Part shown: piece by piece, positions 27,665 to 30,633 of the stretch
How positions within the stretch are numbered: the first letter of the stretch is position 1
Layout: each line of letters opens with the position of its first letter
Assembly: GCA_023105745.1 (NCBI GenBank)
Contig: JALGQZ010000002.1
Coordinates: forward strand, 81,113,785-81,177,784
Direction of reading: 5' to 3'
Source of the DNA: Austropuccinia psidii
Lineage: Eukaryota > Basidiomycota > Pucciniomycetes > Pucciniales > Sphaerophragmiaceae
Length of the DNA: 64,000 nucleotides
The notes under the pieces: generated by a model
Told to the model about the DNA's origin: nothing
Database searches by the model: none
The model's input: only the letters and a program-made list of their open reading frames with translations
Program-made: the position numbers and the translations under genes

Positions 27665-29412
27665 CTCACATCTTGTATGACATTTGCTATGTCATCAATG
27701 CTGCTGATGTTGTTGCATCTGCATTTGACTGCATGTTCTAGATCTCCTGGTGATTTTGTTAGGAGTTTATGGTTTCTCATTTCTATTGTCATATTGGGGT
27801 CAATAGCTTTGAGTCTTTTTGTTTGTTTGAGACACCATTCATATGGGTCTTTTTCTGTGGAGTATCTATCACTTTCAAAGGACATGGTCTTCTGCCAGAT
27901 CCAACTACCATTGCTATACTTTTGTATAATCTGGTTCCTCCACAATGGCCAGCTTTTCCTGCCATGTATTTCTTTCATCTCAGTGTACCATATGTTTGCA
28001 TGGCCTCTGAATGCTGTGTTAAGTCTTGTTGTGATCCAGTAGTCTGGTATCTTTGGGACATCAACAAAGAGTCCATCAATATAGTCAATGATTTCCATAT
28101 GGTCATATTCCCCAATTCCTGAGAACTTTGGCCAGTTTGTTACTTCTGGTAACTGTTTTAGTGCCTGTTTCTCTGAATAGCTGAGATTTTCCCCATCTTG
28201 GTACATTGACTCTGATCTTAACTTTGGAATCTGATATTCAGGTTCCTGGTCATAGTCTTTATCCTCTTCTTTCAATTTTGTAGAGGTAGTGGCTTGACCT
28301 TGCGTTGGAGGGTATTGATTGTCTTCTCTGTCATAGAGGTAATCAATTTCTTTATCAAAGCTATCCTGTTGCTTCTGGATGCTCCTCAGATCTCTCCTCA
28401 CAGTTTGTTGTTCTTCTAGAATTGAATTCAACTGTCTGTTAGTTTTTTCAAATTCTGTCCAAATTTTGGCCAGATTTGTATTCAAGTCTTTTATGACTGT
28501 TGCTTGGAAAGCATTTTCTTCTTTCAATGTTTCCACTTCTGTCCTCATTTTTCCTGAGGTTTCATGTGTCCAATCCATGAATTGGGCCAATTTGGTCCAT
28601 GTGAATTTGTTTTCAAACTCATGAGTGTGGATTTTAGTCTCAGTTATTAATTCTGGATCAATTGAGTCAGAACTATCAACACTATTTGTAGGTACAACTA
28701 TTTTTTGCTTTTGTGTACTTCTTGGACTAAGTCCATCAGCTTTTTCATCAATGGGTCTGCTTCTTTCTTCCTCTGGTTGAAAGAAGTTTTGTTTCTCCCT
28801 TGGGCTCCTTTTCTCCTGTTGGAAACTACCTGGAATGGTTGGGGAGCCTTGGATGAAGTTTCCTTTGGCTTGTAAGGCCTGGAACTGCTGGATTGTTGTG
28901 GGGAAGATGGGGCTTCTCCTTCCATTTCTGGGGGTACCTGAATCTGACTGGGCTCTTCCTTGTGCCAAGATCTCTCTATGGCTTGTATGGCTGCCTGGTT
29001 CTCTTTGATTCTGATTGCTCTTTCTTCTAAGAGTTTGAAATTCTTGTTGGGATTCCAACCTTGCATTTCTGTCATAAGCTCCATCCAAGCCATTTTCTTG
29101 AGACAGATCTTCTGAGTTGTTATCCCCACTTCTGCCCATGATGCTGCCATAGTGAACATTTTGTTGTCCATGCTCCATGTGAAGAGGTCTTTCAGCAGTT
29201 TGTGTATTTGAAGGACCTGTTCTGCATCTGTCCAGTCTCCTGGTTGGACTTCTGGGTTGAATTTGATTTGGAATAAGACCTTGGGTAGGAGTTCCCTGAT
29301 GGTAAGTCCTTTGCTGGTCATTTGCTCCAGTTCTTCCTCCTCTGTGTCTTCTTGGCCAGTGTTCTGGTTGATTTCTTGGGAATCCAAGATCTCTAAGAAG
29401 TGGAGGTGTCAT
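27649..29412 (-). CDS. B Gag (587 codons)
   Basis: The frame opens at ATG 29412, the first sense ATG for more than 1.3 kb, and ends at 27649. The first 238 or so codons are R/Q/P-rich and overlap the accessory frame. Next comes a coiled-coil stretch (KMRTEVETLKEENAFQATVI...) and a capsid-like core (WPKFSGIGEYDHMEIIDYI...WYTEMKEIHG) close to that of A2. The zinc knuckle lies in the -1 frame, at the start of pol. Gag forms the particle shell in which reverse transcription occurs. The start lies inside intron 2 of the accessory gene, so this product needs unspliced RNA. The N-terminal part is less certain than the capsid part. Confidence 0.8.
   Translation of the reverse strand: MTPPLLRDLGFPRNQPEHWPRRHRGGRTGANDQQRTYHQGTPTQGLIPNQIQPRSPTRRLDRCRTGPSNTQTAERPLHMEHGQQNVHYGSIMGRSGDNNSEDLSQENGLDGAYDRNARLESQQEFQTLRRKSNQNQREPGSHTSHREILAQGRAQSDSGTPRNGRRSPIFPTTIQQFQALQAKGNFIQGSPTIPGSFQQEKRSPREKQNFFQPEEERSRPIDEKADGLSPRSTQKQKIVVPTNSVDSSDSIDPELITETKIHTHEFENKFTWTKLAQFMDWTHETSGKMRTEVETLKEENAFQATVIKDLNTNLAKIWTEFEKTNRQLNSILEEQQTVRRDLRSIQKQQDSFDKEIDYLYDREDNQYPPTQGQATTSTKLKEEDKDYDQEPEYQIPKLRSESMYQDGENLSYSEKQALKQLPEVTNWPKFSGIGEYDHMEIIDYIDGLFVDVPKIPDYWITTRLNTAFRGHANIWYTEMKEIHGRKSWPLWRNQIIQKYSNGSWIWQKTMSFESDRYSTEKDPYEWCLKQTKRLKAIDPNMTIEMRNHKLLTKSPGDLEHAVKCRCNNISSIDDIANVIQDVRKKPP
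27658..27664 (-). other. gag-pol -1 frameshift site A_AAA_AAA
   Basis: Seven A on the minus strand, with Gag codons AGA AAA AAA CCT before the Gag stop at 27649-27651. It fits X_XXY_YYZ exactly. A slip back by one base enters the pol frame (ACC TCC ATA) that is open upstream of the zinc knuckle. Confidence 0.8.
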
Positions 29413-29785
29413 GTTAACAATGTTAAGAAATGACAGACAATGAAAAATGTTGTATGTTTCAAGGTTTATTTACCTTTAGCAGGCCCTTGTACAAATTTAT
29501 GATCTATACTCTTTGGCAATTTGCCTTTAGAGTTTACAACTGGGTTGATAACAGTGATTTTCTGTTTTTCAATTTGTTTTGGTGATCCAACTGGTTTTGT
29601 TGGAGCTTTTCTGGGTTTTTTGGCCCTTGGCACGGCTATTGGTGTCCAATATTTTGAGTTGATTGTCACTTCACTGTGTCTTTTCTGCTTGCCCTTGGTT
29701 TTTGGGAGTACCTCTCTGTCTTCTGAGGCTGTCACAGATGGATTTCCTTGTGACTGGGTTTCTAATGGAATATAGTCTTTTTCCA
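28698..29785 (-). CDS. B spliced accessory protein (two visible coding exons)
   Basis: Exons 29474-29785 and 28698-29392 join in frame across an 81-base intron to give about 335 codons. The first exon frame has no ATG, is preceded by a 3' splice site (GAATAG/TG), and would gain AUG if joined to the leader donor at 30536, whose exon ends in A. The N-terminal part is basic and P/K-rich (PRAKKPRKAPTKPVGSPK), possibly nuclear or nucleic-acid binding. The second part has helices (TIRELLPKVLFQIKF), a P/S-rich linker and a basic tail (NRRKGAQGRNKTSF). The layout, intron phase and position match the A2 accessory frame. I recognise no family and infer no function. Confidence 0.6.
29393..29473 (-). other. 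B intron 2, containing the Gag start ATG
   Basis: The minus strand shows G/GTAAAT at 29473 and a pyrimidine-rich TTCTTAG ending at 29393, with CTTAAC/GTTAAC branch-like sites. Phase 1, as in A2. The Gag ATG (29410-29412) lies within it. Confidence 0.68.
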
Positions 29786-30613
29786 CTATTCAGAAAAGAT
29801 ATTTCAGATTGTATATCAGTATTTTATGATAAAACAAAATGATTATATTCAATTCTACTGTTATTTTTCGAAATTTTTTAAGTATTTTTATGTTTTTTTT
29901 TATTTTTATATGTTTTTAATTGAAAAATAACAGCTTTTGAGTTTTCCACTTATGTTTTATAAGTGAAAACTGTAATATCCAAGTGTTTTGTGAATGATTC
30001 ACTTGGATATTATTGTGTTTTTTATATAAACACGTCAAATTTATTAAATTATAATAAATTTGATTTGTTATTATAAATATTATAGATAATATTTATTATA
30101 ACACTTGATATTAATTTAAATATCAATTAATTGCAAGTTTTCACGTCAATTTGAGTGATGTCTTGTTTTAAAGGAAATATTTAATTAAAATATTCCTTAT
30201 AAATAATAAAAAATTATTTTATTATTTAATATTTATTAATTATTTATTAATAAATGTTTCTATATTAATTTTCACGCACTTTGGTGAAAAATAATAGTAA
30301 AATAAATAATATACTGTTTGTATATTATTATTTATATTGAAATTCAAATAATACTGCTGTATTATTATCAATTTTCGTGGAAATTATTGCAATATAATGG
30401 AAAAGAGGATTTGTACTCTTACTCTCAACAAAAATATTTTTTAATATATATTTTTGGAGGAAAAAATTTTTGTATATAATATGTGATAAAAAAATGATAA
30501 TAATATAAAATAAAATAAATTAGAAATTTTACTCACTGTTAGTAAAATACCTTTTAAATAACTGAACTTTTACACCTAATTCAGTTCAAAACACGTCCAA
30601 TAAGGTTGAAAAA
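29786..30613 (-). other. B leader, ATG-free, with candidate intron 1 (29786-30536)
   Basis: An 828-base AT-rich leader with no ATG on the sense strand although ATG is common on the other strand. A consensus donor AACA/GTGAGT lies at 30536, 97 bases from the LTR, and an acceptor TGAATAG ends at 29786. The join A+TG would create ATG in the accessory frame. I see no other coding content. Confidence 0.55.
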
Positions 30614-30633
30614 CCACGGCCAGGCCCCCAAAA
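30614..30633 (-). other. primer-binding-site-like motif of B
   Basis: After the LTR end CCCTGACA the minus strand reads TTTTGGGGGCCTGGCCGTGG, identical in its core to the element C leader and two bases different from A2. Confidence 0.6.

Follow-up and report, generated by a model that had tools for sequence, protein, structure and literature searches.

Element B, a Ty3/Gypsy long terminal repeat (LTR) retrotransposon of the myrtle-rust fungus Austropuccinia psidii, lies on the minus strand (22021-32140) of the 64,000-nucleotide stretch of contig JALGQZ010000002.1 analyzed here (the window), itself part of a 1,015-Mb assembly. The element very probably belongs to a Ty3/Gypsy group in which alternative splicing of a single RNA, driven from the LTR, acts as a start-codon switch. 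A single primary transcript would start in the 5′ LTR. In some of this RNA, removal of intron 1 would join an A to a TG and so create the AUG from which a 335-residue accessory protein is read, while removal of intron 2 would bring exon 2 and exon 3 into one frame and delete the AUG of Gag; both losses are recorded as genomic fossils in a sister subfamily, C, and are predicted for B. In the unspliced RNA, the first AUG met by scanning ribosomes would be the one inside intron 2, which opens Gag, because the leader offers no earlier ATG; Pol would follow by a -1 shift. Spliced RNA would in this way provide the accessory protein, and unspliced RNA Gag-Pol. An RNA lacking only intron 1 would encode a 106-residue product, and one lacking only intron 2 a 207-residue product starting at the ATG at 29321. 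The original prediction had proposed this pairing of a splice-made start with a Gag start hidden in an intron, and it is supported by the conservation of genomic copies, a leader devoid of ATG, selection on the accessory frame, and copies of subfamily C that have lost the introns.

Splice sites, start codons, and leader of Element B

The leader part of exon 1 (30537..30633, minus strand, as for all features of Element B) ends with the A of the future ATG. A primer-site-like sequence, TGGGGGCCTGGCCG, starts at about 30630 within it and is a putative primer site by its position. Donor 1 (A30537/GTGAGT) opens intron 1 at 30536 and acceptor 1 (AATAG/TGG) closes it at 29786; the intron (29786..30536) is 751 nucleotides (nt) long, 83% A+T, and contains no ATG. 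Exon 2 (29474..29785) begins at 29785 and consists of the TG of the ATG, 103 codons in an open frame, and one further base. Joining A30537 to TG29785 would produce ATG GAA AAA GAC, in agreement with the letters and coordinates first proposed. Donor 2 (AAAG/GTAAAT, at 29473) and acceptor 2 (CTTAG/AGATC) delimit intron 2 (29393..29473), an 81-nt segment that ends at 29393 and contains the Gag start codon (29410..29412). As had been claimed, without it exon 2 would continue in frame into exon 3 (28698..29392), and both exons are open; the 335 residues of the predicted product include the split codon. A stop in the accessory frame occurs within the first 8 bases of intron 2. Exon 3 overlaps the start of Gag in a different frame.

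Two statements about start codons stood in part. The accessory frame had been described as lacking an ATG, which holds for exon 2, where none occurs in any frame, and fails for exon 3, whose in-frame ATGs begin at 29321. The ATG at 29412 had been described as the only upstream one, which is correct between the end of the LTR and Gag; the copy in the window carries an additional ATG at 30751, inside the LTR, that is present in none of 39 other copies. The 1221-nt leader contains no ATG, compared with 19.5 (standard deviation 3.2) in 2000 dinucleotide shuffles, and intron 1 alone also has none, compared with 10.8 in shuffles. Such an absence of ATG from the unspliced leader would be expected if ribosomes scanned it as far as Gag. 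As a separate observation, intron 1 (29786-30536) resembles its own reverse complement at query 405-499 (75-76% identity) and may fold into a hairpin.

Conservation among copies of Element B

We compared 61 unique copies of Element B, left from 69 fetched after eight were dropped (the window itself and seven repeat places). They are the best-scoring matches listed, that is, the closest copies rather than a random sample. All 61 copies have an A immediately before donor 1, while the base preceding that A varies (C in 47, A in 14). The GT of donor 1 is kept in 60, the AG of acceptor 1 in 61, and the TG that follows it in 59; for intron 2, the GT of the donor is kept in 61 and the AG of the acceptor in 60, and the Gag ATG is present in 61/61. 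Donor 1 reads GTGAGT in 49 copies, GTAAGT, another consensus donor, in eight, and otherwise in four. On average, copies differ from the window by 0.59% at fourteen key bases versus 3.85% in intron 1 and 3.40% in intron 2; the figure is 2.07% in exon 2, 1.97% in exon 3, and, for 60 copies, 4.68% in the LTR tail. An alignment of genomic copies had been proposed as a check on site conservation, and all splice bases and the Gag ATG proved jointly intact in 57/61. The combination of a broken frame with lost splice sites, named beforehand as evidence to the contrary, is not the state of most of these copies, though some are broken, which is to be expected of old insertions. That B itself is spliced we infer from this conservation and from sister subfamily C.

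Genomic copies of subfamily C point to past splicing

Subfamily C was found by a search with the MF-1 protein P0009. It is 44-49% identical to B in exon 3 and has the same layout (CTTACAA/GTAAGT ... TTGATTCAG/TGGAAGAAAA), with the Gag ATG inside intron 2. Twelve C loci were fetched, chosen largely for matches spanning exon 2 and exon 3, so that counts among them do not represent frequencies. The introns are kept in three loci (L080, L082, and a damaged one, L081, with a damaged donor 2 and an exon 1 that was not located). Intron 2 alone is exactly absent from three others (L079, L085, and L087). In L089, intron 2 is missing together with a further 66-nt intron that lies in frame within exon 2, and L078, L083, L084, and L086 lack intron 2, the 66-nt intron, and intron 1. 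Altogether, intron 2 is exactly absent from 8/12 loci and intron 1 is also exactly absent from 4/12. The last of the 12, L088, was rejected as a splice product and not counted as spliced, since its deletion is unrelated to the introns. L078 reads GGGACCTTACAATGGAAGAAAA, which matches the splice prediction, beside a primer-like site; from the junction-made ATG onward its frame stays open through 311 codons, and its upstream sequence aligns with that of L079 over about 1 kb.

Copies lacking exactly these introns indicate that splicing has happened in subfamily C, and the simplest reading is that the LTR cycle of the element itself turned spliced C RNA back into DNA. Random deletion as the origin of the intronless copies was rejected because the missing segments have exact GT-AG ends at three introns. 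A single spliced master that later multiplied was rejected as well: in a FastTree phylogeny the four copies that have lost intron 1 do not cluster, and identity among their LTR ends is 69-78% over 170 nt, so more than one splicing event is likely, though weak supports leave some pairs possible. Separately, the 66-nt intron of exon 2 is exactly absent from five of the 12 loci (L078, L083, L084, L086, and L089), and the C accessory protein may exist with and without the 22 residues that it encodes.

Selection on the accessory frame and its overlap with Gag

The ratio of nonsynonymous to synonymous differences (pN/pS) was obtained from B versus one C copy (L080). In exon 2, pN/pS is 0.43 (bootstrap 0.32-0.59) for the accessory frame versus 1.09 and 1.23 for the other frames; in exon 3, it is 0.47 (0.36-0.58) for the accessory frame, 1.05 for the Gag frame, and 1.07 for the third frame. 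The accessory frame is under purifying selection between the subfamilies, both in exon 2 and in the overlap with Gag. Over exon 3, the extension of Gag runs through 234 aligned codons without a stop, whereas stops interrupt the third frame at 19 of 221. These patterns suggest a backward extension of the Gag start across an accessory frame that is the more strongly constrained of the two. Variants shared by at least three B copies fall 2/2/10 at codon positions 1/2/3 of exon 2 and 2/8/15 in exon 3. In exon 3, accessory positions 2 and 3 correspond to Gag positions 3 and 1, respectively; given these offsets and the spread of variants, both frames seem to count within B, a constraint-like variation that tempers the idea of a backward extension of Gag.

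The same layout in Element A

A second element in the window, Element A, has its accessory region at 18549..19538, also on the minus strand. Its donor 1 is A19538/GTGAGG, and intron 1 (19537-19461) ends at the acceptor TTTTAG/TGTCTGAC. Exon 2 (19460-19263) has no ATG, intron 2 (19262-19199, 64 nt) contains the Gag ATG at 19212, and exon 3 spans 19198-18549. Its leader contains no ATG versus 6.1 expected. Element A is 56% identical to B in Pol over 1140 positions and 42% in the Gag core over 166. This copy of A is not whole, as its Gag frame is interrupted by an in-frame stop. Since the plan is repeated in Element A and in subfamily C, we rejected a chance layout. A and B have the layout in common; their accessory protein sequences look unrelated and cannot be related to each other by profile comparison. 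A MAFFT placement of A with the B accessory proteins was discounted because the profile comparison was negative.

Some A. psidii gene models of the Element A type read exon 2 into exon 3. By letter patterns among 120 listed models, two begin with MS[DE]N, the predicted start; S[DEY]N stands at or near the beginning of 11, and M[VA]R[QK]E opens 17. Five models (P0063, P0073, P0079, P0090, and P0113) lack the same in-frame stretch of about 24 residues of the accessory core, a gap that, in these models, looks like another optional intron.

Alternative explanations and opposing observations

It is conceivable that only intron 2 matters, with the accessory core made from the ATG at 29321, intron 1 an ordinary leader intron, and the junction ATG of minor use. 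After loss of intron 2, the ATG at 29321 is indeed the first one and lies in the accessory frame, and 4/12 C loci (L079, L085, L087, and L089) lack intron 2 yet have intron 1. Yet exon 2 must be translated, because purifying selection acts in its accessory frame; the A before donor 1 is invariant while its neighbor varies, and the layout recurs in Element A. We regard this explanation as unlikely. Still less probable, in our view, is that the introns are spliced and the product goes unused, so that splicing would dispose of or regulate genomic RNA and the open frame would be a relic. Such a relic would agree with the broken frames of many B copies and with the lack of a function or domain for the accessory protein in Pfam and among solved structures, but would not account for an accessory-frame pN/pS of 0.43-0.47 between B and C or for the 2/2/10 distribution of shared variants in exon 2. 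Translation of exon 2 from unspliced RNA through non-AUG initiation is hardly credible given the exact fossil junctions in C, and unspliced read-through from exon 2 into exon 3 was rejected because intron 2 has an accessory-frame stop directly after the donor.

Several observations weigh against the start-codon switch itself. Neither junction 1 (exon 1-exon 2) nor junction 2 (exon 2-exon 3) of B has a genomic match at up to three mismatches (0 for each), whereas the unspliced donor-1 site has 681 (327 + 354), a control that applies to junction 1 only. Among the 61 B copies, exon 3 is open in just 43, exon 2 in 53, and the Gag overlap in 47, and leader ATGs number 0 in 15 copies, one in 21, and 2-9 in 25. 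Leaders of six C loci have 2-5 ATGs versus 11.5-13.3 expected, so that ATG is depleted there, not absent. Supports in the FastTree phylogeny of C copies are mixed (0.35-1.0). The profile comparison of the A and B accessory proteins detected no similarity between them. Finally, the A. psidii gene models are predicted annotations rather than transcripts.

The accessory protein

The accessory protein is maintained by selection. Each of the 15 relatives listed for its core comes from A. psidii MF-1, as do the 120 entries listed of 598 and the 120 listed of 728 in two larger sets. A Pfam scan of the protein returned no family at its cut-off, and comparison of the core with solved structures gave short matches, none of them convincing, with 5/7 at E 0.018-0.071 to artificial proteins. 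The part encoded by exon 2 is basic (+13 over 103 residues, at the N-terminal end), and the last 80 residues carry a charge of +9. From this charge, our guess is that the protein may have a nuclear or RNA-binding role, and a Rev-like regulatory role is a further guess. The group of Element B could be a fungal counterpart of complex retroviruses, in which a doubly spliced RNA would encode a nuclear RNA-binding regulator that favors the export or retention of unspliced RNA; an early accessory and a late Gag-Pol phase would then be timed by a start codon present only in spliced RNA. We consider this rather doubtful.

Were the start-codon switch to operate as proposed, a subfamily present in hundreds of copies, going by its 681 donor-1 sites, would pick its protein by the presence of an AUG, and the two alternative products would overlap in different frames. 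The switch would also explain a class of A. psidii "hypothetical proteins" and odd start sites of gene models. With copies in different splicing states, the splicing history of a mobile element can be read from DNA alone.

Comparison with known systems

Splicing in LTR retrotransposons is already known, and what appears to be new in Element B is a predicted junction-made start combined with removal of the Gag start. No description of this combination was found among the titles and abstracts returned from one open-access library. Ogre-type Ty3/Gypsy elements have an intron within the pro-pol region; such an intron is not present in Element B, whose Pol is a single open frame of 1379 codons. According to the available part of PMC3735527, the RNA of the plant Ty3/Gypsy elements Ogre, CRR, and Bagy2 is partly spliced, a likeness to the scheme for B: Ogre splices between open reading frames, CRR removes rt, and Bagy2 makes an env RNA. 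In contrast to the proposal for B, that part of the paper speaks of neither a junction-made start nor a removed Gag start. In the Ty1/Copia elements BARE1 (PMC3735527) and EVD (PMC8892269), as far as the accessible text goes, spliced RNA gives Gag only and unspliced RNA gives Gag-Pol. Alternative splicing thus shares products between spliced and unspliced RNA there as in the scheme for B, whereas splicing in B would delete the Gag start and yield another protein.

The P4 frame of rice tungro bacilliform virus is not known to overlap the start of the coat protein gene. Splicing in this virus joins a leader start to the distant P4 frame, and, unlike in B, the start comes from an existing upstream open reading frame of the leader, as described in the available portion of PMC5902531. 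The two are alike in that, on the same partial account of the virus, unspliced RNA does not express the joined frame. In complex retroviruses, multiply spliced RNA gives a small protein and unspliced RNA gives Gag-Pol, a division like that proposed for B. Element B differs in that the 3′ LTR follows Pol without an env frame in between and in that its accessory gene is placed before and over gag. Multiply spliced regulatory genes of complex retroviruses are described in the accessible part of PMC9143442. Drosophila MDG1-group elements carry sORF1 and sORF2 before gag and resemble B in being of the Ty3/Gypsy type with extra small proteins encoded upstream of gag; within the available text of PMC11952523, their full-length transcripts give no evidence of splicing and the short form arises by alternative polyadenylation, unlike the splicing predicted for B. 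In the accessible text of papers on A. psidii or rust transposons, "intron" occurs 0 times and "splic" once in PMC8063080, and both occur 0 times in PMC12210899.

Structure and class of Element B

The 5′ LTR (30634..32140), whose ends were read in the sequence, and the 3′ LTR (22021-23527) are 97.8% identical over a 1509-bp match, and the element is flanked by the target duplication TATTT (22016-22020 and 32141-32145). The Gag frame (27649..29412) has 587 codons; the Pol frame (23552..27691) lies at -1 relative to Gag and contains reverse transcriptase, RNase H, and integrase domains in that order. Element B thus has two LTRs, a short target duplication, and the Pol domain order of Ty3/Gypsy elements. 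A Chromo match in Pol, a candidate for the chromodomain that ends the integrase in the chromovirus branch of Ty3/Gypsy, is weak (E 3.5e-4, 20.9 bits, below the curated cut-off of 25.1). The overlap of Gag and Pol (27649-27691) contains a run of seven A before C, near 27664, a putative slippery sequence and likely frameshift site. No envelope gene lies between the end of Pol at 23552 and the start of the 3′ LTR at 23527, because this gap leaves no room for one.

Other features of the window

A large inverted duplication occupies 120-4747, with arms that are 85-95% complementary and meet near 2440. Other Ty3-type elements lie at 32857-42728 and 58511-63863, and their Pol is 29-43% identical to that of B in the matched pieces. 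The element at 32857-42728 has direct repeats about 8.2 kb apart.

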